Assembly (NCBI GenBank): GCA_003220495.1
Contig: QHSP01000056.1
Location: 1-48,867 of the forward strand
Length of the DNA: 48,867 nt
Source: Candidatus Rokuibacteriota bacterium
GTDB taxonomy: Bacteria > Methylomirabilota > Methylomirabilia > Rokubacteriales > CSP1-6
Direction of reading: 5' to 3'
Shown: one piece after another, positions 17,317 through 47,166 of the stretch
Layout of the letters: each line of letters starts with the position of its first letter
Numbering within the stretch: position 1 is the stretch's first letter
The notes under the pieces: model-generated
Database searches by the model: none
What the model was told of the DNA's origin: nothing
Seen by the model: only the letters and a program-made list of their open reading frames with translations
Position numbers and translations under genes: made by a program

Positions 17317-17340
17317 GGCAAAGTCGAAACCAAGGACATG

Positions 17341-17382
17341 AGCCGGGAGGAGGGCCGAAGAAGGGTTCGCCTCCCGGCTTTT
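17341..17382 (+). terminator. 10-bp hairpin with short T-run between the zinc-ribbon and reductase genes
   Basis: AGCCGGGAGG (17341-17350) pairs perfectly with CCTCCCGGCT (17370-17379) around a 19-base loop and is followed by TTT (17380-17382), making a TTTT with the stem end. It ends 18 bases before the reductase ATG and just before its GGAGG ribosome site (17391-17395). It can be a terminator of the small gene or an attenuator controlling read-through into the reductase operon. Confidence 0.6.
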
Positions 17383-17400
17383 ACGCTTCTGGAGGTACCG

Positions 17401-19098
17401 ATGAGCGAGGCCGTGAAAGAGACGAAGGCGCAGCGGGTCGAGCGGCTCAAGCGCGAGCTGAATCCCTGGGAAGCCTATGCCGACATCCAGCGCTTCGCGC
17501 GCGAGGGCTGGGATGCCGTCCCGCCCGAGTGGCTCGGCACGTACTTCCGCTGGTGGGGGATCTATACGCAGGGCGACGGCGTCGGCGCGATCGGGGGCAA
17601 GGGCGGCGAGGGCAAGGCGGTCAGGCATCTGATGGTGCGGATCCGCATTCCGAACGGCGTGCTCGCGTCGCACCAGGTTCGGACGATCGCCGATCTCGCC
17701 GAATGGCACGGGCGCGGCCTCGCCGACATCACGGTCCGCCAGAACTTCCAGCTCCACTGGGTGACGCTCGAGGGCCTGCCGGACGTCTTCCAGGCGCTCT
17801 GGCTCCAGGGCGTGACCACCATGGGCTCGTGCGGCGACGTCACGCGCAACGTCACCGGCTGCCCGGTCGCCGGCTTCGACGCCGAGGAGCTGATCGACGC
17901 TTCGCCGCTCGTCCTCGAGGCGACCGAGCTCGTGAACGGCAACGCCGCCTTCTACAACCTGCCGAGGAAGTTCAAGGTCTCGATCTCCGGCTGCCGCACC
18001 TGGTGCACGTATCCCGAGATCAACGACATCGGCCTCACCGCGGTGCGCCACCCGGCGACCGGCGAGGTGGGCTTCGCCGTCCGCGTGGGTGGCGGACTTT
18101 CGACCGATCCCCACCTCGGGGTCAGGCTCGACGCGTTCGTGCCGCGCGCGCGCGCTCTGGCAGTCTTCCAGGCGATCGCCGAGATCTTTCGCGACTCCGA
18201 TGTGCTCCGGCAGAATCGTGAGCGCGCCCGGCTCAAGTTCCTCTTCCTCCAGCACGGCTGGACGGCCGAGCGCTTCAAGGCCGCGATCGAGGAGAGACTG
18301 GGCACTCCGCTCGCGCCGGGGGTTCCGGACGACCCGCCCGACGACGCGTATCGCGATCACGTCGGCATCCACGCGCAACGGCAGCCCGGCTACTGCTACG
18401 TCGGCGTCGTCGTGCTCCGCGGGCGCCTCACGGCGGACCAGCTGCGGGTCGCCGCCGACCTCGCCGATCGGTACGGCACGGGCGCGCTCAGGACGACCAG
18501 CATGCAGAATTTCCTGATCCCGAACGTTCGCCGCGAGAGCGCTCACACCCTGGCGCGCGAGCTCGAGGACGCCGGCTTCGCGCTCGACGCCTCGCCGTTC
18601 CGGCGCGGCACCGTCGCGTGCACGGGCTCCGAGTTCTGCAAGCTGGCGCTCACCGAGACGAAGGGCTTCGCGCGCGGGCTCGTGGAGAGCCTCGAGCAGC
18701 GCCTGCCGGGATTCGACCAGCAGCTCCGGATCAACGTCACGGGGTGCCCGAACAGCTGCGGCCAGCACTGGATCGCCGACCTCGGGATCGAGGGCAAGAA
18801 GATCAAGGTGGATGGCGCGATCGTGGACGCCTACTACTTCTGCGTCGGCGGCGCCGTCGGCAGCCATCAGGCCATCGCCCGGCCCATCGGGCTTCGGCTG
18901 CCCGCGACGGCGGTGGCCCCGGCGATCGAGCGACTCCTGCGAGCGTTCCTCGCCGAGCGCCGCTCGAACGAGAACTTCCGCCAGTACGCCGCCCGACACA
19001 CGGACGAAGAGCTGCGCGGACTCCTCGCCGGTGAGCTCGTCGAGGCGGTCGCCCGCGATGCGGCGGCCGAGCGCCCGCCCCACGGCGTCGACGGCTGA
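17401..19098 (+). CDS. Ferredoxin-type sulfite (or nitrite) reductase, siroheme/4Fe-4S
   Basis: A 565-residue assimilatory reductase that adds six electrons to sulfite (to sulfide) or nitrite (to ammonia). The 4Fe-4S/siroheme ligands are intact: Cys407 and Cys413 in CTGSEFC, Cys449 and Cys453 in GCPNSCG. Anion-site residues map to Arg113 (TVRQNFQ), Arg149 (DVTRNVTG), Lys190 and Lys192 (LPRKFK). Known sulfite reductases have Lys at the last position, while plant nitrite reductases have Asn (RKWN), which favours sulfite. The ATG at 17401 has GGAGG at the right spacing. The next genes make siroheme, its cofactor. Annotation pipelines may call it NirA. It is cytoplasmic. Confidence 0.88.
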   Translation: MSEAVKETKAQRVERLKRELNPWEAYADIQRFAREGWDAVPPEWLGTYFRWWGIYTQGDGVGAIGGKGGEGKAVRHLMVRIRIPNGVLASHQVRTIADLAEWHGRGLADITVRQNFQLHWVTLEGLPDVFQALWLQGVTTMGSCGDVTRNVTGCPVAGFDAEELIDASPLVLEATELVNGNAAFYNLPRKFKVSISGCRTWCTYPEINDIGLTAVRHPATGEVGFAVRVGGGLSTDPHLGVRLDAFVPRARALAVFQAIAEIFRDSDVLRQNRERARLKFLFLQHGWTAERFKAAIEERLGTPLAPGVPDDPPDDAYRDHVGIHAQRQPGYCYVGVVVLRGRLTADQLRVAADLADRYGTGALRTTSMQNFLIPNVRRESAHTLARELEDAGFALDASPFRRGTVACTGSEFCKLALTETKGFARGLVESLEQRLPGFDQQLRINVTGCPNSCGQHWIADLGIEGKKIKVDGAIVDAYYFCVGGAVGSHQAIARPIGLRLPATAVAPAIERLLRAFLAERRSNENFRQYAARHTDEELRGLLAGELVEAVARDAAAERPPHGVDG

Positions 19099-19099
19099 G

Positions 19100-19729
19100 A
19101 TGGGCTACTACCCGGTGCTCCTCGACCTCGCGGACCGGCGCTGCGTCATGGTCGGCGGCGGTCTCGTTGCCGAGCGACGCGTCGAGGGCCTGCTGGCGGT
19201 TGGCGCCCACGTGATCGTCATCAGCCCTCGGCTGACGCGGGCGCTCGCCGCGCTGGCCGCCGCGGGGCGCATCGAGCACGAGCCGCGCGGCTATCGCGAC
19301 GGCGATCTCGCCGGCGCCGATCTCGCGTTCGTCGCGACGGACGCGGGCGAGGTCAATGCGTCCGTCGCCCGCGAGGCGAGGGAGCGTTCGGTCTGGATCA
19401 ACGCGGCCGATGACCCCTCGCGCTGCACCTTCATTCTCCCGGCGCTCGTGCGCCGCGGCGACCTCACCGTCGCCGTCGCGACCGGCGGCTCGAGCCCCGC
19501 GCTCGCGCGCGCGATCCGCGAGGAGCTCGAGGCTTACCTGACCGACGACTACGCCACGCTCGCCTCGATCGCGGCCGAGGCCAGGCGCGAGGTGCGGGCG
19601 GCGGGAAAGCCCGTGACCGCCGAGGCCTGGCGGCGCGCGCTCGGCCCGGAGGTCCGCCGGCTCATCGTCGAGCGCGGACGCGACGACGCCAAGCATCGGC
19701 TGCTCGAGCTCCTCGGGGTCGAATCGTGA
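19100..19729 (+). CDS. Precorrin-2 dehydrogenase / sirohydrochlorin ferrochelatase (Met8/SirC-like)
   Basis: A 209-residue cytoplasmic protein matching the N-terminal half of CysG. It oxidises precorrin-2 to sirohydrochlorin with NAD+ and may insert iron to give siroheme. The nucleotide fold is seen in YPVLLDLADRRCVMVGGGLVAERR, and NAADD carries the Asp needed for both activities in Met8p and CysG. ILPALVRRGDLTVAVATGGSSPALAR is the family signature. It begins one base after the reductase stop, and its TGA overlaps the GTG of the methyltransferase gene. Together with the next gene it replaces a fused CysG. Confidence 0.9.
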   Translation: MGYYPVLLDLADRRCVMVGGGLVAERRVEGLLAVGAHVIVISPRLTRALAALAAAGRIEHEPRGYRDGDLAGADLAFVATDAGEVNASVAREARERSVWINAADDPSRCTFILPALVRRGDLTVAVATGGSSPALARAIREELEAYLTDDYATLASIAAEARREVRAAGKPVTAEAWRRALGPEVRRLIVERGRDDAKHRLLELLGVES

Positions 19730-20562
19730 GGGTCGGCACGGTCGCCCTCGTCGGGGCCGGCCCGGGGGATCCCGGCCTCATGACGGTGCGCGGCCTCGAG
19801 CTACTGCGGCGCGCTCAGGTCGTCGTGTACGACCGGCTGGTCGATCCGCGACTCCTCGACGAAGCGCCCCGCGCCCGCCGCATCTTCGCGGGCAAGGCAT
19901 CCGGGAATCACGCGCTACCGCAGGAGCAGATCAACATGCTGCTGATCACGCACGCGCGGCGGGGGCGGCGGGTCGTGCGGCTCAAGGGCGGCGATCCGTT
20001 CGTGTTCGGGCGCGGGGGCGAAGAGGCCGACGCCCTGGCGCGGGCGCGGATTCCGTTCGAGGTCGTTCCCGGCGTCAGCTCGGCGGTCGCCGTCCCCGCG
20101 TACGCGGGCATCCCGGTCACCCATCGCGGCGTCGCCTCCTCGTTCACGGTGGTGACGGGCCACGGGAGCGCCTCGGGGCGCGAGTCGAGCGTCGACTGGG
20201 CCCGGCTCGCGTGCTCCGCCGACACGCTCGTGGTGCTGATGGGGGTCGAGAGCCTCTCGCGGATCGCGCGCGAGCTGATCGCCCACGGGCGCCCGGCGGC
20301 GACACCCGTCGCCCTCGTCCGCTGGGGGACCACGAGCGCGCAGGAAACGGTGACGGGCACCCTCCGCGACATCGCGGCGCGCGCCGCCCGCGCGCGGCTC
20401 GAGCCTCCCGTCGTGATCGTGATCGGCGACGTCGTCGCGCTCCGCGATCGGCTCCAGTGGTTCGACGACAACCGCGTTCCCATTGTGCGCGCTGCAGGAC
20501 GTCGCGGGGCTGGGGCCCCGCCGTTCGAGGCGCGCTTTCAGCCCATGGAGGTCGCTCAGTGA
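19726..20562 (+). CDS. cobA: Uroporphyrinogen-III C-methyltransferase (SUMT)
   Basis: A 278-residue SAM-dependent enzyme that methylates uroporphyrinogen III twice to give precorrin-2, the first step toward siroheme (and cobalamin). Signatures: VGAGPGDPGLMTVRGLELL at the N terminus, RLKGGDPFVFGRGGEEA, and PGVSSAVAVPAYAGIPVTHR. The GTG start at 19726 forms a GTGA overlap with the preceding stop, and the next gene starts within this stop. The last 25 or so residues (from about VPIVRAAGRR) are encoded by inverted copy E of the palindromic repeat and do not belong to the conserved fold, so the natural C terminus appears to have been extended or replaced. Catalytic parts are intact. Confidence 0.92.
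   Translation: MRVGTVALVGAGPGDPGLMTVRGLELLRRAQVVVYDRLVDPRLLDEAPRARRIFAGKASGNHALPQEQINMLLITHARRGRRVVRLKGGDPFVFGRGGEEADALARARIPFEVVPGVSSAVAVPAYAGIPVTHRGVASSFTVVTGHGSASGRESSVDWARLACSADTLVVLMGVESLSRIARELIAHGRPAATPVALVRWGTTSAQETVTGTLRDIAARAARARLEPPVVIVIGDVVALRDRLQWFDDNRVPIVRAAGRRGAGAPPFEARFQPMEVAQ
20487..20535 (-). repeat. 49-base palindromic repeat, copy E, inside the 3' end of cobA
   Basis: Read on the minus strand, this is the same element as copies A-C: GCGCGCCTCGAAC, then the core GGCGGGGCCCCAGCCCCGCG, ending in GCGCGC. Here it is translated as part of the CobA tail (residues about 254-270), unlike the other copies, which are intergenic. Confidence 0.8.
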
Positions 20563-26423: not shown

Positions 26424-29400
26424 ATGTCGTGCCCGCAGTGCGGACATCCGAACCCGGCCGACGCCAAGTTCTGTAGCGACTGCGGCGCGGCGCTGGAGCT
26501 CAGGTGTCCGAGATGCGGATGCGGCAGCGCCCGCGAAAGCCGGTTCTGCACCGAGTGCGGCGAGGCGCTGAGGCCGACATCGGCTCGGGCCGCGCCGCAA
26601 TCCTATACGCCGCGGCATCTCGCCGAGCGAATCCTCACCTCCCGCAGCGCGCTCGAGGGCGAGCGCAAGCACGTCACCGTCCTTCTGGCAGACCTGAAGG
26701 GCTCCATGGAGCTCTTGGCCGACCGCGATCCGGAAGAGGCGCGCCAGCTCCTCGACCCGGTCCTCGAACGCATGATGGAGGCCGTTCATCACTTCGAGGG
26801 CACCGTCAATCAGGTCATGGGCGATGGGATCATGGCGCTCTTCGGCGCGCCCATCGCGCACGAGGACCACGCGGTCCGCGCCTGCTACGCGGCCTTGCGC
26901 ATGCAGGAGCGGGTGAGCCGGTACGGTGACGAGATACAACGGACGCACGGCGTCCCGATCCAGATCCGGGTCGGGATCAACTCGGGCGACGTCGTGGTCC
27001 GGTCGATCGGGAGCGATCTGCACATGGACTACACCGCCGTCGGCCAGACGACGCATCTGGCGGCCCGCATGGAGCAGATGGCCAAGCCCGGTTCCAGTCT
27101 CCTCGCGCCCCCGACCCTGCGGCTCGTCGAGGGCTACGTACGGGTCCGGTCGTTCGGACCCGTCACGATCCGCGGACTTGCCGAACCCGTGGAGGTGTTC
27201 GAATTGCTCGGCGCGTCATCGAGCCGGACGCGTCTTCAGGTGTCCGCGGTCCGCGGCCTCACTCGCTTCATCGGCCGGAGCGCCGAGCTCGAGCAGCTGC
27301 GCGCTGCGCTGGAGCGAACCCGCGCCGGACGGGGCCAGGTCGTGGCCGTGGTCGGCGAGCCCGGCGTCGGCAAGTCGCGTCTCGTGCTCGAGCTCGCCGA
27401 CTCGCACCGCACCGACGGTTGGCTCGTCCTGCGGTCGAGCGCGGTGTCCTACGGCAAAGCAGCGCCGCTCCTGCCCGTCATCGAGCTGATGAAGACGTAC
27501 TTGGGAATCGATGATCGTGACGACGAGCGACGCGTTCACGAGAAGCTGACCGGCAAGGTCCTGACGCTCGACGAGGGCCTCCGGTCGGCGCTTCCGGCGC
27601 TGCAAGCGCTCCTGGAAGTGCCCGTCGACGCCGCCGACTGGAGAAGCCTGGGCGCCGATCAGCAGCGCCGGCGAACCCTCGATGCCGTGCGGCTCGTGTT
27701 GCTGCGCGAGAGCCAGAGACAGCCGCTGCTGCTCATTCTCGAGGACCTGCACTGGATCGACGCGGACACGCAGGCGCTGCTCGAGAGCCTGGTCGAGACC
27801 CTGCCCTCGCGCCCGTTCCTGTTGCTCGTGAACTACCGGCCCGAATACCGTCACGGCTGGGGCGGCAAGACTTACTACGAGCAGATTCGCCTCGATCCGC
27901 TGGCGCCGACGTCCGCCGAGGCTCTCGTGGAGGTCCTCTTGGGAGGGGACGCCGCGCTCACGCCGCTCACGGCTCTCTTGATCGCTCGCGCTCAGGGCAA
28001 CCCCTTGTTCCTCGAGGAGAGCGTGCGCGCGCTGGCTGAGACGGGGGTCCTCGCCGGAGAGCGGGGCGCCCATCGTCTCGTGAAGGCCGCCCCGGTCATT
28101 CACCTGCCCGCGACGGTTCAGGCCATCATCGCCGCGCGGATCGATCGCCTGCCGCCGGAGGACAAGAGTCTTTTGCAGTGCGCATCGGTCGTTGGCGAGG
28201 ATGTGCCCCAGGCGCTGCTGCACGCGATCGCCGGCCTTGGGGAGCCCGACGTGACCCAGGCCCTGGCCCGGCTGCAGTCGGCGGAATTCATTTACCAAAC
28301 GCGACTGTTCCCCGACGCGGAGTACACGTTCAAGCACACGCTGACCCACGAAGTCGCCTACGGAACCCTTCTGCAGGAGCGCCGCCGCGCGCTGCACGCC
28401 CAGGTCGTGGACGCCATCGAGCGTCTGTTCCCGAGCGCCTTGGCCGAGCATCGCGATCGGCTCGTCCATCACGCCTTCCGCGGCGAGGTCTGGGGCAAGG
28501 CGGTCGCGCACCTGCGCGACCTCGCCGAGGTGGCGTCGCCGGCCGAAATCGACAACGTGATGGGCTCCAGCACCGAAAGCGCCGGCCAGTTCTGGTGGAG
28601 TGGTGAGTACGAGCAGGCGATCAGGGCCGCGGAGCGCGATCTCGCGGTCGCCACGTCGTTCGGCAACTTCAGCATGCTCGTCATGGGCACCTGCCGGCTC
28701 GCGCAGGCGAATCACGCGCTGGGTAACTATGAGCGGGCCGCCGACATCTTTCGACAAGTCGTCGCCAGAGTCGGCGGCGACCTCGTGCACGAGCGTCTCG
28801 ATATGGCCGCGCTTCCGTCGGTGTGGGCGCGCTCGTGGCTGGCCTGGACACTCGCGGAACTCGGCGACTTCGATGAAGCCGCGGCAATCGCCGAGGAAGC
28901 GCTGGCGATCGCGGTGTCCGCGGACCACACGTACAGTCGCTTCCAGGCGTTCTACGGCCTCGGCATCGTCCATCTGCTCAGAGGGCGCCCCGGCCTGGCG
29001 GTGCCCACGCTGGAGCAGGGGCTCGTGCTCGCGCGGCTCGAGAACAATCGCTTCTTCGTCCCCTTCATCGCGGCGCCGCTCGGGGCGGCGTACGCGTTCG
29101 CCGGACGGGTAGAAGGCGGCATCACGATGCTGGAGCAGGCGGTCGAGCAGGCCGCGTCGATGCGGCTCGTCCCCACCCAAGCGTTACGGTTGGCGTGGCT
29201 CGGTCAGGCCCATCTCATGGCGGGCCGCCGCGAAACGGCCCTGGGGCACGCGCGGCGGGCACTCCAGTTGGCAGAGGATCGGCGGGAGCGTGGCCAGCAG
29301 GCCTACGCCGAGCGTCTGCTGGCCGATATCGACGCCGAGGCACGGCCGGCAGACCTATCGGTGGCCGCCGGCGCCTATCGCCGGGCGCTCGACCTGGCGG

Positions 29401-29576
29401 AGAGTCTCCACATGCGGCCCCTGGTCGCTCAGTGCCTGCTCGGCCTGGCCCGGTTGCACCGGCAGGCGGGGGAGCGAGACCAGGCGCGCAAGGGGCTCGC
29501 CGACGCGATCGCGCGATTCTCCACGATGGGGATGACGCTCTGGGTCGAGCGGGCGCAGGCGGATCTGGACGCGTAG
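26424..29576 (+). CDS. Zinc-ribbon / class III cyclase / AAA ATPase / TPR regulator
   Basis: A 1050-residue cytoplasmic protein. Two tandem zinc ribbons start it: CPQC/CSDC (residues 3-20) and CPRC/CTEC (28-45). A class III nucleotide cyclase domain follows (about 82-262) with both metal Asp residues (Asp90 in LLADLKG, Asp134 in MGDGIMALF) and the transition-state Arg215. However, the purine-binding Lys aligns with Gln130 and the conserved Asn with His211, so catalysis is doubtful. An AAA/NACHT-like ATPase begins near 280 (Walker A GEPGVGKS, 311-318; Walker B LLLILEDLHWID near 440). TPR-like helices fill the remainder from about 700. Cyclase-ATPase-TPR proteins of this type are common in actinobacteria and GC-rich soil lineages, and their signals are unknown. 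Confidence 0.88.
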   Translation: MSCPQCGHPNPADAKFCSDCGAALELRCPRCGCGSARESRFCTECGEALRPTSARAAPQSYTPRHLAERILTSRSALEGERKHVTVLLADLKGSMELLADRDPEEARQLLDPVLERMMEAVHHFEGTVNQVMGDGIMALFGAPIAHEDHAVRACYAALRMQERVSRYGDEIQRTHGVPIQIRVGINSGDVVVRSIGSDLHMDYTAVGQTTHLAARMEQMAKPGSSLLAPPTLRLVEGYVRVRSFGPVTIRGLAEPVEVFELLGASSSRTRLQVSAVRGLTRFIGRSAELEQLRAALERTRAGRGQVVAVVGEPGVGKSRLVLELADSHRTDGWLVLRSSAVSYGKAAPLLPVIELMKTYLGIDDRDDERRVHEKLTGKVLTLDEGLRSALPALQALLEVPVDAADWRSLGADQQRRRTLDAVRLVLLRESQRQPLLLILEDLHWIDADTQALLESLVETLPSRPFLLLVNYRPEYRHGWGGKTYYEQIRLDPLAPTSAEALVEVLLGGDAALTPLTALLIARAQGNPLFLEESVRALAETGVLAGERGAHRLVKAAPVIHLPATVQAIIAARIDRLPPEDKSLLQCASVVGEDVPQALLHAIAGLGEPDVTQALARLQSAEFIYQTRLFPDAEYTFKHTLTHEVAYGTLLQERRRALHAQVVDAIERLFPSALAEHRDRLVHHAFRGEVWGKAVAHLRDLAEVASPAEIDNVMGSSTESAGQFWWSGEYEQAIRAAERDLAVATSFGNFSMLVMGTCRLAQANHALGNYERAADIFRQVVARVGGDLVHERLDMAALPSVWARSWLAWTLAELGDFDEAAAIAEEALAIAVSADHTYSRFQAFYGLGIVHLLRGRPGLAVPTLEQGLVLARLENNRFFVPFIAAPLGAAYAFAGRVEGGITMLEQAVEQAASMRLVPTQALRLAWLGQAHLMAGRRETALGHARRALQLAEDRRERGQQAYAERLLADIDAEARPADLSVAAGAYRRALDLAESLHMRPLVAQCLLGLARLHRQAGERDQARKGLADAIARFSTMGMTLWVERAQADLDA

Positions 29577-29600: not shown

Positions 29601-30020
29601 CTACGCGGGCGCGTGCACGAAGGGCAGGACGGCGTAGCGGGCCCGCTCGACCTCGATCGCGAGAACCACGCGCTGAGCAGGGTTGTCCCGGAACGGAAAC
29701 GGCTTGCCGGTGTACTTGTGCGAGATCCGGTCCATCGTCTTGAAGTCGGCGTCGGGCCTCCGCTCGGCGACCCGCCCCCGGATCTGCGCTTCCCGGTACG
29801 GATTGTCCACGGCGACGATCGAGAGCCCGACGCGCGCGTCGCGGCGCGTGTTCTTCGCCTTCAGCGATCCCTCGCCGGTGCTGACGAGGATGAAATCTCG
29901 GTCGAGATCCACCCAGACCGGCGCGACCTGTGGCGAGCCGTCGGGCATGAGGGTCGCGAGATGCGCGAAGTTCGCGCCGCGCACGAGCGCCTTGACGTCG
30001 TCGGAGAGCTTGACCGGCAT
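29601..30020 (-). CDS. PPOX-class (pyridoxamine oxidase-like) F420/FMN-dependent protein
   Basis: A 139-residue split-barrel protein of the PPOX-class F420-dependent group. NFAHLATLMPDGSPQVAPVW is the typical first strand pair, and NTRRDARVGLSIVAVDNPYR the cofactor-side motif. Members reduce or oxidise small molecules with F420H2, FMN or heme; the cofactor is not decidable here. The ATG at 30020 has an AGGAGG site seven bases upstream. It is the last gene of the minus-strand cluster mtoX-SCO1-sulfurtransferase, starting 11 bases after the sulfurtransferase stop. It is convergent with the large regulator gene (24-base gap). Confidence 0.85.
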   Translation of the reverse strand: MPVKLSDDVKALVRGANFAHLATLMPDGSPQVAPVWVDLDRDFILVSTGEGSLKAKNTRRDARVGLSIVAVDNPYREAQIRGRVAERRPDADFKTMDRISHKYTGKPFPFRDNPAQRVVLAIEVERARYAVLPFVHAPA

Positions 30021-30031
30021 GCGGGGACCTC

Positions 30032-30892
30032 CTATGTCTCGATCGGCGTGTCGCCGTCGCCGCCCCACTCCGTCCACGAGCCATCGTACACCGCGACATC
30101 GGGCCGCCCGATCGCGTAGAGGCCGAGCGCCAGAACGGACGCGGTGATGCCGGACCCACATGACGTGACCACGGGCTTGTCGAGATCGAGGCCCGACGCC
30201 TCGAACTTCTGGCGGAGGGCGTCGGGCGGCAATAGCGTGCCGTCTTTTTGATAGAGCTCGTCGTACGGAAGGTTCAGGCTTCGCGGGATGTGCCCCGCCC
30301 GAAGCCCCGCGCGCGGCTCCGGTTCGGTGCCGGCGAAGCGCCCGCGCGACCGCGCGTCGAGCACCTGCGCCTTTCGCGTCGTGAGGTTCCGACGCATGCC
30401 CGCGAGGTCGCGCACGAGGCTCCGGCGCAGGCGCGCGGTGAAGCGCCGCGGCTTCGGCGCCGCTGAGCCGGACTCGACGGGGCGGCCCTCGGCGCGCCAC
30501 CGGGGCAAGCCGCCGTCAAGGACGGCCACCGCGTCATGACCGAAGGCGCGAAACGTCCACCAGACGCGGGCCGCACTCACGACGCCCCGCGAGTCGTAGA
30601 CGATTACCCGATCACGATCACCGATGCCAAGGCGCCCCACGCTCCGCGAGAACTCGGCGGCGCGCGGCAGCATGTGCGGGAGCGATGTGCGCGGATCGGC
30701 GATGGCGTCGATGTCGAAGAACACCGCGCCCGGCACGTGGGCCTCGACAAATTCAGCGCGCGCGTCGCGCTTCAGCTGGGGCATGTGCCAGGAGCCGTCG
30801 ACTACGCGGACGTCGCGCCGGCCGAGGTTCTGGGCGAGCCACTCGGGGGTGACGAGGGGCGAGGCCTGCGGCGCGCGTGCCACCGGACTCAC
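30032..30892 (-). CDS. 3-mercaptopyruvate/thiosulfate sulfurtransferase (tandem rhodanese)
   Basis: A 286-residue protein with two rhodanese domains (about 12-135 and 160-280). The active-site loop of the second domain is CGSGIT (Cys245), the pattern of mercaptopyruvate sulfurtransferases rather than the charged loop of thiosulfate rhodaneses. The first-domain signatures VVDGSWHMP and GAVFFDIDAIAD also match this group. It moves sulfane sulfur from a donor to a thiol or cyanide acceptor. No signal peptide is visible, so it is probably cytoplasmic. The GTG start at 30892 makes a GTGA overlap with the SCO1-like stop. Its place behind mtoX suggests it handles the sulfide or sulfane sulfur released by methanethiol oxidation. 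Confidence 0.85.
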   Translation of the reverse strand: MSPVARAPQASPLVTPEWLAQNLGRRDVRVVDGSWHMPQLKRDARAEFVEAHVPGAVFFDIDAIADPRTSLPHMLPRAAEFSRSVGRLGIGDRDRVIVYDSRGVVSAARVWWTFRAFGHDAVAVLDGGLPRWRAEGRPVESGSAAPKPRRFTARLRRSLVRDLAGMRRNLTTRKAQVLDARSRGRFAGTEPEPRAGLRAGHIPRSLNLPYDELYQKDGTLLPPDALRQKFEASGLDLDKPVVTSCGSGITASVLALGLYAIGRPDVAVYDGSWTEWGGDGDTPIET

Positions 30893-31620
30893 CGAACGAC
30901 CTTCCGCTGAAGCCGGTGCTCGAGCCGGAGGGTCTTGATGTCGTTCATGATGACCTCGGGAAAGAGATACGCGGTCGTGTAAATCTCGCGGACGATCGCG
31001 CGCTCGTCGAGCAGGAACACCTTGAGCACGTGGGCGAACGGTCCGGTCGGCCGATCGTGCGCGTCGACCTCGATCCGCACGTCCTGGCCGAAGCCGTCGA
31101 GGAGCGGAACGAGGGTCCGCGGCCGGTCGGTCGTGAGGAACGCCCACTCGACACCATTCGGCGGCGCTCCCGCCGCGTAGTGTCGCATCACGGCCGGTCT
31201 GTCGCGCGCCGGATCGAAGCTGAGCGAGACCAGCCGCACGTGGTCTCGCAGCTCGGCATCCTCTGCGGCGCGGTGGCGCACCGTGCGGAAGACCTGGTAG
31301 GCGAGGGGACAGCCGCGCGCGTCGGCGCACGAGGTGTAGACGAATCCCAGGAGCGTGATCTTTCCCGCGGTGAAGCGCGACAGCGGAAGCCTTCGGCCGT
31401 CCGGGTCGAGCACCGGCCCGTCGGGCGCCGGCATGATCGCGTGAAGCGCGTAGCTGCCGGCCGGCGGCGGCACGAAGTCCATCGTGACGGCGGCCGGCAC
31501 GGTGTCGTCAGGCTCGTGCGCGTCGACGACGACCTCCGCGGCGGCCACGGCCGCCGCGAGGAGCACCGTGATCCATGCGCGGCGCGACTCAGCGAAGCGT
31601 CGCGCTGCGCTCGAGCCCAT
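30889..31620 (-). CDS. SCO1/SenC-like copper protein of the mtoX cluster
   Basis: A 243-residue thioredoxin-fold protein with an N-terminal membrane anchor or signal (about 14-32, RAWITVLLAAAVAAAEVVV). The core reads ITLLGFVYTSC (Cys98) with a second Cys at 104, a CX5C spacing rather than the usual CX3CP of SCO proteins. A His at 197 (FAHVLKVFLLD) occupies the place of the third copper ligand. SCO proteins deliver copper to cuproenzymes. SBP56-type methanethiol oxidase is copper dependent, and SCO1-like genes accompany mtoX in characterised clusters, which fits here. The ATG at 31620 overlaps the end of mtoX by 32 bases; a slightly later start is possible. Confidence 0.8.
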   Translation of the reverse strand: MGSSAARRFAESRRAWITVLLAAAVAAAEVVVDAHEPDDTVPAAVTMDFVPPPAGSYALHAIMPAPDGPVLDPDGRRLPLSRFTAGKITLLGFVYTSCADARGCPLAYQVFRTVRHRAAEDAELRDHVRLVSLSFDPARDRPAVMRHYAAGAPPNGVEWAFLTTDRPRTLVPLLDGFGQDVRIEVDAHDRPTGPFAHVLKVFLLDERAIVREIYTTAYLFPEVIMNDIKTLRLEHRLQRKVVR

Positions 31621-32914
31621 ACGCGGTCTTCATCGCCTTCGAGCCGAGCTTCATGTGGTGCGCGCGGCCGAGCTTCTCCTTGTAGAAATCAACCTCGAAC
31701 GCCGGCTTGAGCTCCTTGCCGTCCCAGGAAAAGCCGCGCACGAACTGCTCGTCGTCCGCCCCGCCCTTGTCCCAGTTCGCGAGCAGCGAGGAAGCGATGT
31801 AGACGCGCGTGCCGTCCCAGCTCTGCGAGATCATGTTGACCTGCTTGCCCGTGACCCGCTCGTAGGTCTGCTTCGGCTGCTCTGGGTTCGACAGGTCGAA
31901 GTAGCGGGTCTTGCCGTCCATGAACGTGTTGACCCAGAGCCCGGTGCCGTCCTTGTTGATGCTGATGTCCACCGGCAGGGGGACCTTTGCCGGATCGCCG
32001 ATGACGGCGACCTCCTTGGCCTGCCACTCGCCGGAGGCGTCCGGCTTGACGAGCCAGAGCTTCGAGGTGAGCGCGGAGGCGGTGATCGCCCAGCTGTCGC
32101 CGTCCTTGAGCGACCAGCGGATCTCCAGCGGCGCGCCGGGGACGCTCAGGATCTTCTTGGGCTTCATCGCCTTGAGGTCCCACACCACCATCGTGCTCCC
32201 GAAGCGCTTCATCGCCTCGGCGTCCTTGATCAAGTCTCCGAGGGCGCGCATGTAGTTCTTGCGTCCGGTGAAGCTCGACGTCAGCAAGACGTTCTGCTGT
32301 GGATTGATCGCGACGTCGTAGCCGTAGCCGTCGCCGCCGCCGGTCGTCGGCATGGGATACTTGGCGATCAGCTCACCCTTGTTGCTATAGAGCGCCATCC
32401 CGGTCACGCCGCCGCCGTCCGTGGTGTTCGACAGACCCTGGACGATCATCCGGCCCGGCATGGCGTAGAAGGTGTGCGGGCCGACGTAGCCGGTCTTGGC
32501 TGGCATGTCCGACATCGTCCGCACGAGCTTGGGCCGCGCCGGATCGCTCCCGACGTCGAAGATTGAGATGCGGCTACTGTCGAGGCCGCCGGCCCAGAGA
32601 TAGCGCCGGTCGTCGGTGAAGCCCATGTGGTGCGCCTCGCCCTGGCCGCGCACCGAGACCTTGTTGAGCACCTTGCCGTAGCGGCTCGACGCGGGATTCA
32701 CGTCGATGGTGACGAGCTTGTCGGAGCCATCGCCCGTTCCCTTGACTCCGAGCGCCCACACGTAGAGGTAGTCTTCCTGCCCCTTGATCAGATTGCCCAT
32801 ATAGGGCGAGTTGCACGTCTCGTCGGCGGTGGCCGGAAGCGCGGCGACGCCGGCCAGAGCCAGAAGACCGGCGATCACGCCGGCGCGCGCTGCGCGAAGT
32901 CGATTGCCATGCAT
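31589..32914 (-). CDS. mtoX: Methanethiol oxidase (periplasmic SBP56 family)
   Basis: A 441-residue exported protein. The signal peptide (residues 1-30, ending PATA) directs it to the periplasm. The mature start DETCNSPYMGNLIKGQEDYL, with Cys34, is the conserved N-terminal signature of the SBP56/methanethiol oxidase family, and EAHHMGFTDDRRYLWAGGLD, YDVAINPQQNVLLTSSF and GRAHHMKLGS are further family blocks. Characterised bacterial members (Hyphomicrobium) are copper-dependent and convert methanethiol to formaldehyde, sulfide and hydrogen peroxide. The ATG at 32914 has AGGAGG eight bases upstream. It is followed by SCO1-like, sulfurtransferase and PPOX genes. Selenium-binding protein is an older name for the same family. 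Confidence 0.9.
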   Translation of the reverse strand: MHGNRLRAARAGVIAGLLALAGVAALPATADETCNSPYMGNLIKGQEDYLYVWALGVKGTGDGSDKLVTIDVNPASSRYGKVLNKVSVRGQGEAHHMGFTDDRRYLWAGGLDSSRISIFDVGSDPARPKLVRTMSDMPAKTGYVGPHTFYAMPGRMIVQGLSNTTDGGGVTGMALYSNKGELIAKYPMPTTGGGDGYGYDVAINPQQNVLLTSSFTGRKNYMRALGDLIKDAEAMKRFGSTMVVWDLKAMKPKKILSVPGAPLEIRWSLKDGDSWAITASALTSKLWLVKPDASGEWQAKEVAVIGDPAKVPLPVDISINKDGTGLWVNTFMDGKTRYFDLSNPEQPKQTYERVTGKQVNMISQSWDGTRVYIASSLLANWDKGGADDEQFVRGFSWDGKELKPAFEVDFYKEKLGRAHHMKLGSKAMKTAYGLERSATLR

Positions 32915-32958: not shown

Positions 32959-34263
32959 TTACTCGCGCGCGATTCGGGCGCCGAGGGCTTTCAAGCGTAC
33001 GTCGATACGCTCGTAGCCGCGGTCGACCTGCTGGACGTTGCGGATGACCGAGCGCCCCTGCGCCGCGAGCGCCGCGGCGATCAGGGCCATGCCGGCGCGG
33101 ATGTCGGGCGACACGATGGTTGCGCCGTGCAGACGGCTCGGGCCGATCACGAGCGCCCGGTGCGGATCGCTCAGGAGGATGCGCGCGCCCATCGCGATCA
33201 GGCTGTCGACGAAGAACAGCCGGCTCTCGAAGAGCTTCTCGTGGATGAGCACCGTGCCCTCGCATTGCGTCGCGAGCACGAGCGCCAGCGGCGTGAGGTC
33301 GGCCGGGAAGCCGGGCCACGGGGCGTCGTCGACCTTGGCGATTCCGCCGTCAACGTCGGGCGCGATGATCCGCTTCTGCGCCGCGGGCACCTGAAGACTC
33401 GTGCCCTCGATGTGGGTCTCGATGCCGAGCCGGGCGAGGACGAGCCGGATCATCCGGAGGTGATCGGGCGCGACCTCGCGCACACGAAGCGCGCCTCCGG
33501 TCATCGCGGCCACCGCGACGAAGGAGCCGATCTCGATGTGATCCGGGCCGACCTGATGTCGCGCCGGGCGGAGCTCGCGGACTCCGTCGATCTCGAGGAC
33601 GTTGCTGCCGATCCCCCGGATGCGCGCGCCCATCCCGTTCAGGGCGTGGCAGAGCCCCTGGACATGGGGCTCCGAGGCCGCGTTCAGGAGCCGGGTGGTG
33701 CCGTCGGCCATCGCGGCGGCCATGACCGCGGTCTCCGTGCCGGTCACGCTGGCCTCGTCCAGAAAGACCTCCGCGCCGCGAAAGCGGCCGACGAGCTCCA
33801 GCCGGTAATACGCGTCGTCCAGGGTGATGCGGGCGCCGAGCTCGCGGAGAGCCAGGAGATGGGTGTCGAGCCGCCGGCGCCCGATCTTGTCGCCGCCCGG
33901 CCGGGGCAGCACCGCGAGACCGGTCCGCGCCAGCAGCGGTGCGGCGAGGAGGAACGAAGCCCGAATCTCAGCGGCCAGCGCCGCATCCGGCCGCGACTCG
34001 CGGAGGCCTCCGGCGTGGACCGTGACGGAGTGGTCACCCGACCATTCGACGGAAACACCGAGAGCCCGAACCAGCTCGATCAGGGTGGTCACATCCCTGA
34101 TACGTGGCACGTTCTCGATCACCACGTTGCCGGACGCGAGCAGTGACGCGGCGAGGAGCGGCAGGGCCTCGTTCTTGTTCCCGCTCGGGATGACATCCCC
34201 CCCGATTGGATGGCCACCCTCGATTACGAACCGGTCCGCCGCCGTCGAATCCATAGAAGGCAT
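32959..34263 (-). CDS. murA: UDP-N-acetylglucosamine 1-carboxyvinyltransferase with Asp at the fosfomycin site
   Basis: A 434-residue enolpyruvyl transferase that makes the first committed peptidoglycan precursor from UDP-GlcNAc and phosphoenolpyruvate. The substrate Lys30-Asn31 ([11 protein letters not shown]), Arg101, the Asp in PGFPADL and the Arg in DIRAGMAL match E. coli Lys22, Asn23, Arg91, Asp305 and Arg397. The catalytic-loop Cys115 is replaced by Asp125 (GGDKIGRR, against GGCTIGAR). Asp at this site supports activity and gives intrinsic fosfomycin resistance in mycobacteria, Chlamydia and Borrelia. Two ATG starts (34263, 34254) are possible; neither has a clear ribosome site. It lies 44 bases upstream of mtoX on the same strand but is functionally unrelated. 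Confidence 0.9.
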
Positions 34264-34828: not shown

Positions 34829-35542
34829 CTAGCTCCCGGATGCCGTCAGCTCGTCGAGCGAGCGGATGATCCGGTGCGGTTGGACGGCGCTGCCGTCTGG
34901 TAAACCGAGCCCCCCGCGATCCATCCACACGCCGGTGAGCCCGAGCCGCTGAGGCGCCCCCACGTCCCATTCAAGATGGTCGCCGACCATCAACGCCTCG
35001 CCGGGAGTCATGCCGAGCGCCGTCAAGACGTGCCGATACACAGCCTCGTCCGGCTTGCCCGTCCCGAACTCACCCTCGACCAGGATCGTGTCGAAGAAGC
35101 GCGCGAGGTCGTGCCGCTGGATCTTGTCCCGCTGCTGGACGGCATCGCCGTTCGTGACCAGCGCGAGCGGGATGCCGCGCCGCCGGAGCTCGGTCAAGCA
35201 GGCGAGCGAATCGGGGAATAACCGCATCGCGGTCCGCCGCCGGGCGGCGTAGTCGCGCGCCACCGCGGACGCGAGGTCCGGAGCGGACCGGCCAAGACGC
35301 TCGAGGGCGAATTCGACGATGTGCTGCCAGGCCCCGAGCATGTTCACGCGCTCGCGGCGATGGCGCGCCGGGTCGTCCCAGAACCATCGCCGCGTCTGGG
35401 CGATCGCGGCCACGAGCGCCGCGGCGTCGATCCCGGCCGGAGCGCAGCACGAGGCGCACGCTTCCGTCCAGCTGCGATCGACGCCCCCGGAATAGTCGAG
35501 CAGCGTGTCGTCGAGGTCGAAGAGCAGCGCCTTCACGGTCAC
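34829..35542 (-). CDS. HAD-superfamily hydrolase
   Basis: A 237-residue haloacid-dehalogenase-like phosphatase (subfamily I cap). Motif I is LFDLDDTLLD, motif II is LALVTNGD, the motif III Lys is in GTGKPDEAVY, and motif IV is MVGDHLEWDV with the second metal Asp; all catalytic residues are present. The profile resembles YjjG/pyrimidine-5'-nucleotidase-type enzymes, but the substrate cannot be assigned. The GTG at 35542 overlaps the upstream TGA (GTGA), so it is translated with the DUF385 gene; a second GTG two codons later is an alternative. It is convergent with the Cys-rich gene (7-base gap). Confidence 0.85.
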   Translation of the reverse strand: MTVKALLFDLDDTLLDYSGGVDRSWTEACASCCAPAGIDAAALVAAIAQTRRWFWDDPARHRRERVNMLGAWQHIVEFALERLGRSAPDLASAVARDYAARRRTAMRLFPDSLACLTELRRRGIPLALVTNGDAVQQRDKIQRHDLARFFDTILVEGEFGTGKPDEAVYRHVLTALGMTPGEALMVGDHLEWDVGAPQRLGLTGVWMDRGGLGLPDGSAVQPHRIIRSLDELTASGS

Positions 35543-35871
35543 GCCGGGTCGAGCTCCACGACGAGACCGTCGCCCCAGCCGTACTTCTTCTCCGAGAGCT
35601 TCTTCACAGCTCGAGCCAGCTCGGGCTCGGCTTTCGCGTCGACCACACGCGCGTCGGCCGCGAACGAGCGGCGACCGACCCGCACGGCCACGCGGGGCGC
35701 CACCCTGAGATTTCGCACCCACTGAGCGCGCTCGCGATGCTCGGCGACGAGGTAGTAGAGGCCTCCCCGTTGCGTGAACCAGATCTCGATCTCGCGCGGC
35801 TGGCCCGTGCGTCGCCCCGTCGTCGTCAAATAGAGGTACTGGGTGGTCCTAGACTTGGCCGGCCTGGCCAT
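35539..35871 (-). CDS. DUF385 / deazaflavin-dependent nitroreductase-like protein
   Basis: A 110-residue split-barrel protein related to the F420H2-dependent nitroreductase (Ddn) family. TTTGRRTGQPREIEIWF is the family signature, and VAEHRERAQWVRNLRVAPRV the cofactor-contacting helix. It is short for the family and lacks the N-terminal extension of Ddn. The ATG at 35871 is preferred over an upstream in-frame TTG; either way the start overlaps the end of the pyroglutamyl-peptidase gene. It is coupled to the HAD gene downstream. Substrate and cofactor (F420 or FMN) are not determined. Confidence 0.8.
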   Translation of the reverse strand: MARPAKSRTTQYLYLTTTGRRTGQPREIEIWFTQRGGLYYLVAEHRERAQWVRNLRVAPRVAVRVGRRSFAADARVVDAKAEPELARAVKKLSEKKYGWGDGLVVELDPA

Positions 35872-36484
35872 CGCCGTGGGCAATCACACCCAGGATTGTC
35901 TCGACGGCCCGGAGCATGAGCGGGAAGTCCATGCTCGGCTGCTCCAGTCCGCTGGCCGCGACCGACGCCGGGAGCAGCGGGAAGTGGACGAAGCCGACCC
36001 GAGGCGGGCGAGGCATGTTGCGCACCGCGTGAAGCGTCCAGTAGAGCGTTTGATTACAGAGGTAGGTCCCGGCGGTATTGGACGTATAGGCGGGCATGCC
36101 CTCGTCGACGAGCGCCTTCAGCATCGCGGGCAGCGGCAGGGTCGAGAAGTACGCGGGCGGCCCTCCGGCAACGCACGGCTCGCCGCTCGCCCGATAGCCC
36201 GCGTTGTCGGGCACCTCGTAGTCCATGACGTTGAGGGCCACGCGCTCGAGCGCGATCCGGGCGCGCCCGCCGGCGAGACCGAGGTGAAGCACCGCCTCCG
36301 GATTGCTTTCGGCCAGCAGCGCGGCGAGCCGCGCCGCGGTGTCGTCGTGGTGCACGGGCAGGACCGCGCCCAGCACGGCAAAGTCGCCGACCCGCCGTCC
36401 GTCGACGGCCTTGGCGAGCCCTTCGGTCGGGTTGACGGAGTGCGCGCCGAACGGCTCGAAGCCGGTCACGAGAATCGTGCTCAC
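35849..36484 (-). CDS. pcp: Pyroglutamyl-peptidase I (C15 cysteine peptidase)
   Basis: A 211-residue cytoplasmic peptidase that removes N-terminal pyroglutamate. The triad is Glu80 (ALERVALN), Cys143 (TYLCNQ) and His167 (GFVHFP), within one residue of the positions in the Bacillus enzyme. The N terminus ILVTGFEPFG is diagnostic. The start is a GTG at 36484. It is the first of three overlapping minus-strand genes (pcp, DUF385, HAD). The MFS gene lies 24 bases upstream on the same strand. Confidence 0.93.
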   Translation of the reverse strand: MSTILVTGFEPFGAHSVNPTEGLAKAVDGRRVGDFAVLGAVLPVHHDDTAARLAALLAESNPEAVLHLGLAGGRARIALERVALNVMDYEVPDNAGYRASGEPCVAGGPPAYFSTLPLPAMLKALVDEGMPAYTSNTAGTYLCNQTLYWTLHAVRNMPRPPRVGFVHFPLLPASVAASGLEQPSMDFPLMLRAVETILGVIAHGDGQAGQV

Positions 36485-42371: not shown

Positions 42372-42390
42372 GCAGGCTCAGCGAGCCTGC
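42372..42390. terminator. Bidirectional hairpin between convergent Spy-like and lpd genes
   Basis: GCAGGCTC (42372-42379) and GAGCCTGC (42383-42390) form a perfect 8-bp stem with a 3-base loop. It spans the stop codon of lpd and lies just after the stop of the plus-strand gene, a common place for a shared terminator. There is no T-run on either side. Confidence 0.45.
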
Positions 42391-43766
42391 TGCAGCAAGG
42401 ACTCGGCGGCCTCCATCAAGGTCTCCGACAAGGTCGGGTGCGTATGGATGGTCACCGCGAGGTCCTCGACGGTCATCGCGGTCTCGATGGCGAGCGCGCC
42501 CTCGGCGATGAGCTCGCCGGCGCCGGGGCCCACGATCCCGACCCCGAGCACGCGGCCGGTGTCCGGATCGGCGAGGATCTTCGTCAGTCCGTCGCTGCGG
42601 CCGAGCGTCAGGGCGCGGCCCGAGGCGGCCCATTCACGCTTGGCGATCTTCACGGTGCGCCCCTCGCGCGCCGCGTCGGACTCGGTCAGCCCGCACCAGG
42701 CGACCTCGGGGTCGGTGAACACGACCGCCGGGACGACGACGTTGTCGAACGCCGCCGGACGGCCCGCGATCACTTCCGCGGCGACCTTGCCCTGACGCAT
42801 CGCCCGATGGGCGAGCATCGGTTCGCCGGTGACGTCGCCGACGGCGTAGATCGCCGGGTCGGCCGTGCGGCAGCGATCGTTGACGGTGACGAAGCCGCGC
42901 GCGTCGGCGCTCGCCCGCGTGTGCTCGAGCCCGAGCCCTGCGCTGGCCGGTCGCCGGCCGACCGCGACCAGCACGCGATCGAACGTCTGGGCATCGCCGG
43001 GCTCGAGGCGCGCTTCGATGGCCGAGCCTTTCTCGAGGAGCGACGTCACCTTCGTCCCCAGGTGGATCTTCGCGAAGAGCTTCTCGCACCGGCGGGCAAG
43101 CGGCTGGACGAGGGCTCGGTCAACACCCGGCAGAAGCTCGTCGGTCATCTCGACGACGGTGACCTGACTGCCGAGCGCCGCGTAGACCTGACCGAGCTCG
43201 AGACCGATGTAGCCGCCGCCGATCACGAGGAGCCGCTCCGGCACCTCGCCGAGCTCGAGCGCCGCCGTCGAGTCCATGACACGCTCGCCGGCGAGGGAGA
43301 GGCCGGGCAGTCGGGCCGGCGCCGAGCCGGTCGCGACGATCGCGTGCTTGAAGCGCACCTTCTGCGGCTCGTCGCCCTCGACGTAGAGCTCGCGCGAGCT
43401 CTCGAACACGGCGCGGCCGCCGATGACGTCGACCCCCTTGGCCTTCGCGACGGACGCGAGCCCGCGCGCGAGCCGGCCGACGACCCGCTCGCTCTTCCAT
43501 TTTCTCAGTGGGTCGAGTGAGACGCGCGGCTCGCCGAAGTCGACGCCGAGCTCGCGGGCGCGCTCGGCGTCCTCGATCAGCGCCGCGACGTGGAGCAGGG
43601 CCTTGGACGGGATGCAGCCCTCGAAGAGGCAGGCGCCGCCGAGGCGCTTGCCCCCGTCGACCACGACGGTCTCGAGCCCCAGCTCCGCGCAGCGAAACGC
43701 CGCCGAGTAGCCGCCGGGCCCGCCGCCCACGACGGCAACGTCCACCTCGACGACGAGATCGCCCAT
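42378..43766 (-). CDS. lpdA: Dihydrolipoyl dehydrogenase (E3)
   Basis: A 462-residue FAD enzyme that reoxidises dihydrolipoamide on E2 and passes electrons to NAD+. The FAD site is VAVVGGGPGGYSAA, the redox disulfide Cys46/Cys51 is in GGACLFEGCIPSK (the usual form is GGTCLNVGCIPSK), the NAD site is LLVIGGGYIGLELG, and the active-site His443/Glu448 lie in HTHPTLSE. I chose the ATG at 43766 over two GTG codons just upstream. It is the last gene of the 2-oxoacid dehydrogenase cluster and is preceded by the methyltransferase gene. The enzyme looks fully functional. Confidence 0.93.
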   Translation of the reverse strand: MGDLVVEVDVAVVGGGPGGYSAAFRCAELGLETVVVDGGKRLGGACLFEGCIPSKALLHVAALIEDAERARELGVDFGEPRVSLDPLRKWKSERVVGRLARGLASVAKAKGVDVIGGRAVFESSRELYVEGDEPQKVRFKHAIVATGSAPARLPGLSLAGERVMDSTAALELGEVPERLLVIGGGYIGLELGQVYAALGSQVTVVEMTDELLPGVDRALVQPLARRCEKLFAKIHLGTKVTSLLEKGSAIEARLEPGDAQTFDRVLVAVGRRPASAGLGLEHTRASADARGFVTVNDRCRTADPAIYAVGDVTGEPMLAHRAMRQGKVAAEVIAGRPAAFDNVVVPAVVFTDPEVAWCGLTESDAAREGRTVKIAKREWAASGRALTLGRSDGLTKILADPDTGRVLGVGIVGPGAGELIAEGALAIETAMTVEDLAVTIHTHPTLSETLMEAAESLLQQAR

Positions 43767-43786
43767 CACCACGGCGGGATCCGTCC

Positions 43787-44584
43787 TTACTCGACCTGGC
43801 CCCGCACCGCCCAGGCGCGGGCAATCAGATGGATGCTGCCGTCAGGCTTGACCGTCATCGTCGACCGGATCCGATCGCGGAGCGCGGCGCGCCGCTCTTC
43901 GGTGAGCGACATGCAGTATCCGGGCGCCGGGGCCTGGCCGCCGAGGAACGGGCTCCAGTAGTCGTCGAAGTCCTTGAAGACCGTCGGCACGTCGATCGCG
44001 AGGACGCGCACCTGAGTCAGACCGGCCGATTCGAAGAGCTCGACCAGCGGTCCGGGGCGCGCGATCGGAAATCGCCGTCCCTCGTCGAGCTCGAGCGCCG
44101 GCGGGTCGAGCGCGACCGCCGCATCCCAGAAGCGGCGCATCAGCTGCATCTCGCCGGCGTAGTCCCAGACGTACGCCGCGACGGTGCCGCCGGGAGACAG
44201 CGCACGCCTCATCTCCGCCATCGCGTGCGCCTGGTCCGGCACGAAGTTGAGCATGAGCCCGGAGACGACGACGTCGTGCTCGCCGTCCTTGACGGGAAGC
44301 GTCTGCGCGTCGCCCGGTCGGAAGCTGACGCGCGGATCCGTCACGCGCGCGCGGGCATACTCGAGATACTCCTCGGACCGGTCGACACCGACGACGGCAT
44401 CGGGCGAGCAGCGCGCGACGATGGCCTCGCTCAGCGCGCCGGTGCCGCAGCCGACATCGAGCCAGCGCAGACTTTCGGGGGCGTCGAGCCAGCGCAGGAA
44501 TTCCGGCGCGACGAGCCGGCTCCAGCGGCCCACGTAGGGCTCATAGGCGTTGCCGCTCGACCAGGTGTCTCGATGGTCGGGCAT
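43787..44584 (-). CDS. Class I SAM-dependent methyltransferase
   Basis: A 265-residue Rossmann-fold methyltransferase of the Methyltransf_11/25 type. Motif I is LDVGCGTGALSEAI, the acidic strand-2 loop is VVGVDRSEEYL, and the motif II/III region is PGDAQTLPVKDGEHDVVVSG. The N terminus (SSGNAYEPYVGRWSRLVAPEFL) is typical of small-molecule or UbiE-like enzymes; the substrate is unknown. The ATG at 44584 has AAGGAGG upstream. It is lodged between the E2 and E3 genes of the 2-oxoacid dehydrogenase operon, an unusual place with no obvious biochemical link. Confidence 0.82.
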   Translation of the reverse strand: MPDHRDTWSSGNAYEPYVGRWSRLVAPEFLRWLDAPESLRWLDVGCGTGALSEAIVARCSPDAVVGVDRSEEYLEYARARVTDPRVSFRPGDAQTLPVKDGEHDVVVSGLMLNFVPDQAHAMAEMRRALSPGGTVAAYVWDYAGEMQLMRRFWDAAVALDPPALELDEGRRFPIARPGPLVELFESAGLTQVRVLAIDVPTVFKDFDDYWSPFLGGQAPAPGYCMSLTEERRAALRDRIRSTMTVKPDGSIHLIARAWAVRGQVE

Positions 44585-44619
44585 GAGGACCTCCTTGTGT
44601 CTCATCACCAGGCCTCCAA

Positions 44620-46131: not shown

Positions 46132-46181
46132 TCGTCTACGAGCTCCGTTCGCCTGCCGCGGAGGGGACCGCCATCACCACC

Positions 46182-47162: not shown

Positions 47163-47166
47163 GGCG

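Follow-up and report, generated by a model that had tools for sequence, protein, structure and literature searches.

In Hyphomicrobium sp. VS and Ruegeria pomeroyi DSS-3, the methanethiol oxidase gene mtoX is followed directly by an SCO1/senC gene and then by mauG (PMC5739008). The mto clusters of Methylophaga thiooxydans likewise combine MtoX with SCO-type maturation genes and carry sulfur genes behind them; they include an SCO1-MauG fusion, a persulfide dioxygenase and a sulfide quinone reductase (PMC6548844). MtoX requires copper, for which His89, His90, His140 and His412 are the proposed ligands in the Hyphomicrobium enzyme (PMC5739008). In terms of products, three Rhodobacteraceae MtoX enzymes yield sulfane sulfur (PMC10936201), and the human homologue yields H2O2, H2S and formaldehyde (PMC10362175). 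We describe an mtoX locus in a 48,867-nucleotide stretch of the metagenome-assembled genome of a soil-dwelling member of the Rokubacteria (GCA_003220495.1, contig QHSP01000056.1), the whole of which is called the window. Four genes, all on the minus strand at 29601-32914, are read in the order mtoX, SCO (an SCO-fold protein), RHOD (a tandem rhodanese) and PPOX (a small flavin/F420 protein). This locus shares the direct mtoX-SCO order with the Hyphomicrobium and R. pomeroyi operon and differs from it in the surrounding genes: those loci have mauG behind the SCO gene and neither MurA upstream nor RHOD or PPOX downstream, whereas the window has all three of these and no linked mauG. Compared with the M. 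thiooxydans clusters, it has a mercaptopyruvate-type sulfurtransferase and no MauG domain. Our data indicate that the widely conserved unit is the mtoX-SCO pair only, that the four-gene order is restricted to one Rokubacteria genus, and that the MtoX-linked SCO protein is marked by a CX5C loop.

Conservation of gene order around mtoX

The initial annotation had read the four genes as one compact cluster for methanethiol oxidation, and its gene content, family names and span agree with the open reading frames and the family scores. The SBP56 enzyme is MtoX, with 714.6 bits against the NCBIfam methanethiol oxidase model NF052453 (cut-off 650) and 137.7 bits against Pfam SBP56 (PF05694). RHOD scores 263.3 bits against NF008557 (3-mercaptopyruvate sulfurtransferase), narrowly over the cut-off of 250, and contains two PF00581 stretches. 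PPOX scores 102.2 bits against TIGR03618 (F420-type PPOX; cut-off 79.05). The SCO protein reached a low 38.5 bits against PF02630 (cut-off 22.8), and an NCBIfam search with it returned zero matching models. The spacing is tight, with a 32-base overlap between mtoX and SCO and a GTGA overlap between SCO and RHOD, both as annotated, and a gap of 11 bases between RHOD and PPOX.

The order of these genes was compared among mtoX loci gathered from phylum genomes (n = 95) and among 80 loci on named contigs, of 444 confirmed; this named-contig set may omit records near the window's own genome. An MtoX match (E ≤ 0.001) was present in 62 of the 95 phylum genomes and scored over the cut-off in 18 of the 95. 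The SCO gene lay directly behind mtoX in 112 of the 116 loci with MtoX of at least 49% identity, and the remaining four were cut by contig ends. The fragmentary mtoX of genome G001, from the same genus, was included in these counts and in the loop and MauG counts below; it lies in three pieces at L054:7681-8846 and is either a broken gene or an assembly error. RHOD or PPOX, by comparison, was found on the same strand behind mtoX in 13 of 123 loci, which come from eight other genomes of the window's genus and, in five cases, from duplicate copies of those contigs. Outside the genus the count was 0/110, the sole exception being a weak rhodanese that lies 6 kb from mtoX in the opposite orientation (L157). 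Judged by gene order in relatives, the check that the initial annotation had itself named, only mtoX-SCO is widely conserved, and RHOD and PPOX stand behind the pair in the genus only.

Within the genus, RHOD follows mtoX-SCO in 9/9 genomes and PPOX in 8/9; the genome lacking PPOX at this place (G007) has a 61% PPOX elsewhere only. Upstream of mtoX, 44 bases away and in the same orientation, lies the MurA gene; the annotated cluster had left it out, and within the genus its conservation equals that of the other four. MurA, a HAD hydrolase and a pyroglutamyl peptidase upstream also keep one order (L045 is cut by a contig end), and because this order is equally kept, shared descent explains the four-gene order without shared function. 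The mtoX neighbours examined in other genera were unrelated genes (L039, L042, L043 and L047), and in L046 and L050 the family searches of the neighbours gave no family.

The CX5C loop of the MtoX-linked SCO protein

The canonical SCO copper site consists of a CX3C motif and a distal histidine. In the window SCO protein the copper loop reads C-ADARG-C-P, that is, CX5C at C98-C104. Among the 116 loci described above, 110 had a CX5C loop, two had CX3C and four were cut by contig ends. When identical MtoX copies were removed, 99 of 101 distinct MtoX-linked loci carried a CX5C SCO, in which the usual loop is C-x-[DE]-x-x-G-C-P; two of the 99 (L115 and L145) read CTEPTGCA, without the proline. The two CX3C exceptions, L036 and L037, are Skermanella and Microvirga plasmids.

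The unlinked SCO proteins used as controls agree with the canon, as all 90 of those examined had CX3C. Seventy came from the phylum (30 returned loci and 40 picked from the further entries of a longer list, in which not every match appeared), and 20, drawn from 30 loci returned among 42 matches, came from 12 named genomes (11 proteobacterial and one verrucomicrobial). The MtoX-linked SCOs returned from these same 12 genomes were CX5C in 10/10 cases, and the second SCO of the window's own genome reads CAEACP (CX3C). Read by eye, four of the 90 controls (L191, L252, L219 and L245) had CX3C without a following proline, and one (L253) carried a second, chance motif next to its CX3C. In a quick tree of 196 SCO sequences, with the loop columns included, the 101 MtoX-linked sequences formed one group (Shimodaira-Hasegawa-like approximate likelihood-ratio support 100), and the two CX3C sequences were nested inside it. 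Residues C98, G103, C104, P105 and the distal His197 were invariant in 23/23 rows. Because its loop is CX5C at C98-C104 as opposed to CX3C in 90/90 unlinked SCOs, the MtoX-linked SCO protein is, as judged from sequence, a distinct SCO-fold subclass and not a canonical SCO. It has the fold, the two loop cysteines and the distal histidine in common with the SCO1/SenC copper chaperones (PDB 4hde, 6n5u, 1wp0 and 4bpy), and differs from them in having CX5C for CX3C, a low PF02630 score and no NCBIfam match. A CX5C loop is likewise present in the SCO of R. pomeroyi.

The CX5C SCO could instead be a thiol-disulfide oxidoreductase that keeps Cys34 of MtoX, or partners of its metal site, reduced, and not a copper chaperone. 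We regard this as unlikely. The loop is unlike that of every unlinked SCO examined, and ResA/TlpA-like thiol-disulfide proteins match the predicted SCO model with Z of about 13-14, both of which would suit an oxidoreductase. However, the model has the SCO fold and its best structural matches are SCO structures (Z up to 18.9), the two loop cysteines and His197 are all retained in every aligned row, and MtoX needs copper (PMC5739008).

Two groups of linked SCO proteins stand out. The CX3C SCOs of L036 and L037, nested in the CX5C group, provide a natural contrast on the role of the loop. Separately, of the eight loci with MtoX of about 40% identity that bring the loop comparison to 124 loci, six had a CX3C SCO and two had no SCO; the six (L070, L072 and L074-L077) represent a divergent MtoX subfamily with an adjacent CX3C SCO and NF052453 scores near 300, far under the cut-off.

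A literature search, with subscription papers and supplements outside it, found no description of a CX5C loop in MtoX-linked SCO proteins and no precedent for a rhodanese at mtoX. The main text of PMC5739008 does not contain the words 'motif', 'CxxxC' or 'rhodanese', and that of PMC6548844 contains neither 'motif' nor 'rhodanese'. The CX5C marker is apparently unreported.

The proposed copper site of MtoX and linkage to MauG

In the window MtoX, Cys34, His95, His96, His147 and His419 were invariant across a 15-row alignment. Cys34 sits in TCNSPYM, the equivalent of which in the MtoX of the R. pomeroyi group is TCQSPYM with Cys28 (PMC10936201), and the four histidines were matched to His89, His90, His140 and His412 of Hyphomicrobium through motif and spacing. 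The window enzyme thus has the same proposed copper histidines and substrate cysteine as the enzymes of the Hyphomicrobium and R. pomeroyi operon (PMC5739008). Because these residues are present, its copper dependence, which the initial annotation had proposed, is likely. The best match of the predicted MtoX model is 2ECE, the sole solved SBP56 structure found via sequence, and the match concerns the fold only. Hydrophobic N-terminal leaders were judged by eye to be present in MtoX, where the predicted model also has a helix at 5-21, and in the SCO protein. An export signal was looked for by eye in RHOD and PPOX and none was seen.

The absence of a MauG-like gene beside the four genes, which had also been annotated, is borne out; the window genome has a single, unlinked CCP_MauG gene on another contig (C153). 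When distinct loci were required to extend 2.5 kb or further downstream, MauG was near mtoX in 32/92 and absent from the vicinity in 60/92, and 13 further loci were too short to be counted. In the phylum set, linked MauG was found in 1/29 loci. Since the 60 loci without linked MauG keep the proposed copper histidines, a linked MauG is not a general requirement of MtoX, and loci without it are a common state. Conservation of the copper histidines, Cys34, W53, W107, W245, W297, W366, W381 and W397 is almost complete whether or not MauG is linked; the variable tryptophans are W267 (slightly), W275, W287 and W327, and at the loci without MauG a Tyr or Phe more often takes the place of W275 and W327.

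MauG might still be required and be supplied from an unlinked gene for a tryptophan tryptophylquinone (TTQ)-type cofactor of MtoX, as TTQ has been proposed for Hyphomicrobium (PMC5739008). Unlinked MauG was searched for in the genus, where a CCP_MauG gene was found in 6/9 genomes, the window's own included. This, the proportion of loci with MauG nearby, and the more frequent occurrence of Trp at positions 275 and 327 in MauG-linked loci are all consistent with such a requirement. On the other side, the search found no CCP_MauG in 3/9 genus genomes despite the presence of MtoX (two are about 95% complete, although the assemblies are incomplete), and most of the loci counted have no linked MauG. 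An unlinked supply is in our judgement distinctly improbable. The texts consulted report no test of how MtoX acquires copper or whether it needs MauG.

RHOD and PPOX in relatives without mtoX

RHOD itself is an ordinary protein by comparison with NF008557, with which it shares two rhodanese domains, the CGSGITA loop and an above-cut-off score; it is unusual only in having mtoX-SCO as its neighbour. Beyond the genus, 33 genomes of the same family have RHOD orthologs (at least 59% identity). PPOX lies no more than 3 kb downstream of RHOD in 3 of these 33 (G044, G045 and G075), and in none of the three is the RHOD-PPOX place an mtoX place: no MtoX match was found in G044 or G075, and the G045 matches are on other contigs. 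G044, which belongs to another genus, has MurA first, followed by an MFS gene in the opposite orientation, a four-domain rhodanese, RHOD, a P450 gene and PPOX. A P450 gene also stands between RHOD and PPOX in three genomes of the window's genus (L040, L048 and L054).

In the family, RHOD usually has the four-domain rhodanese (for example L201:5643-7208, minus strand) as its upstream partner, and a cysteine-dioxygenase-like cupin is often close by. The four-domain protein was located within 1 kb upstream of RHOD, on the same strand, in 26/33 of the other family genomes, and a cupin exactly at the cysteine-dioxygenase cut-off (23.0 versus 23) was near RHOD in 9/14 RHOD loci outside the genus. 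No close copy of the four-domain rhodanese was found in any of the 9 genomes of the window's genus, and a 45-48% relative was present on another contig in 8/9. Four-domain rhodanese, RHOD and cupin may possibly represent a separate cysteine or persulfide module.

The initial annotation had suggested an extended pathway in which the sulfurtransferase and PPOX genes serve to dispose of the sulfur or the peroxide. RHOD and PPOX would then have been recruited, RHOD to take sulfane sulfur or sulfide from MtoX and PPOX to handle redox or peroxide side products. The tight spacing in the window, the 9/9 and 8/9 occurrence in the genus, the sulfane sulfur formed by the three Rhodobacteraceae enzymes (PMC10936201) and the persulfide dioxygenase and sulfide quinone reductase genes in the M. 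thiooxydans mtoX clusters (PMC6548844) would all accord with such a pathway. We nevertheless consider it quite unlikely. Neither gene stands behind mtoX in any of the 110 loci outside the genus, and three genomes have the two linked to each other with no mtoX at that place. In addition, MurA, the HAD hydrolase and the pyroglutamyl peptidase keep their order equally well and have no plausible role, and RHOD and PPOX have no leader by eye as opposed to a probably periplasmic MtoX. The extended pathway is unsupported; a part for RHOD in handling MtoX-derived sulfur is conceivable.

Two probable units at the locus

The locus is in our view quite probably composed of two units side by side, namely an mtoX-SCO pair with a copper-loading SCO that has moved in, and a resident RHOD/PPOX unit. 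The first would be a widely distributed methanethiol-oxidation pair, both proteins of which would be exported. Judging from what is known of these families, the SCO protein would act in the periplasm and, through its two loop cysteines and His197, load copper onto the His95/96/147/419 site of MtoX; methanethiol would be bound at Cys34 and oxidised at the copper site to formaldehyde and sulfide or sulfane sulfur. The second unit would consist of RHOD, PPOX and, in some relatives, the P450 gene, and would be resident, probably cytosolic and active on substrates of its own. Most likely mtoX-SCO entered a resident block running from MurA through RHOD to PPOX, and the pair would have been placed between MurA and RHOD, where G044 has the divergent MFS gene and the four-domain rhodanese. 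The MtoX proteins of the genus form one clade in the tree, apart from the MtoX of other genera of the family, and holding the two together was rejected by the approximately unbiased test (p-AU 4.25e-06) on 35 rows that were picked after the tree was seen. Separate clades fit separate transfers.

Besides this choice of rows, several observations weigh against the reading as two units. The linked CX3C SCOs of L036 and L037 indicate that CX5C is not essential everywhere. The other neighbours of RHOD are sulfur genes, so the landing site of mtoX was not random. Among the blocks retrieved, only G044, which is 75% complete, shows MurA and RHOD together without mtoX, so few genomes stand behind the direction of the movement, and the reverse direction is conceivable. 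Finally, the spacing is operon-like and RHOD is present in 9/9 genus genomes, and co-transcription and a joint role of mtoX-SCO with RHOD are possible.

A more far-reaching proposal is put forward only tentatively. The CX5C SCO may be MtoX's own class of chaperone, co-inherited with it across phyla and enough for the copper site without MauG, and in this genus the pair may have replaced the four-domain rhodanese, thereby coupling oxidation to sulfane-sulfur transfer.

Features of the locus and neighbouring genes

Table 1. Coordinates in the window of the mtoX locus and its conserved upstream neighbour, with the basis of each assignment.
Feature	Coordinates	Strand	Basis
mtoX, SBP56-type methanethiol oxidase, 441 aa; Cys34, His95, His96, His147, His419; hydrophobic leader	31589..32914	-	NF052453, PF05694, invariant residues, predicted model matching 2ECE
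SCO-fold protein, 243 aa; CX5C loop (C98, C104), distal His197	30889..31620	-	PF02630, SCO fold, loop counts, invariant residues
RHOD, tandem rhodanese of 3-mercaptopyruvate sulfurtransferase type, 286 aa; GTG start	30032..30892	-	NF008557, two PF00581 stretches, genus-only adjacency to mtoX-SCO
PPOX-class protein, F420 type, 139 aa	29601..30020	-	TIGR03618; linked to RHOD without mtoX in G044, G045, G075
murA-type UDP-N-acetylglucosamine 1-carboxyvinyltransferase, conserved upstream of mtoX throughout the genus	32959..34263	-	TIGR01072 (465.9 bits, cut-off 392.7), synteny

Between the HAD hydrolase and the pyroglutamyl peptidase, a small F420H2-dependent quinone reductase-like protein is encoded at 35539-35883 (minus strand); together with PPOX it hints at the use of F420. 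Convergent with PPOX, at 26424-29576 (plus strand), is a gene for a large regulator-like protein with a zinc ribbon, a nucleotide cyclase domain, an AAA ATPase and TPR repeats. Elsewhere in the window, a nitrite/sulfite reductase with a tetrapyrrole methylase behind it at 17338-20562 (plus strand) resembles assimilatory siroheme-dependent reduction, and 42378-48309 (minus strand) encodes components of a 2-oxoacid dehydrogenase complex, namely an E3-like protein, E2 and two parts of E1.

Significance

Methanethiol turnover joins sulfur and carbon cycling, and the window holds a genuine mtoX-SCO locus in Rokubacteria, an ordinary system plus one useful marker of an SCO subclass. The gene-order result is a caution against inferring a pathway from the operon of a single genus. 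The CX5C loop sets the MtoX-linked SCO apart from the remaining SCOs in the same genomes, which makes the question of MtoX maturation directly testable, and it may help to recognise true mtoX loci among the SBP56 genes of metagenomes.

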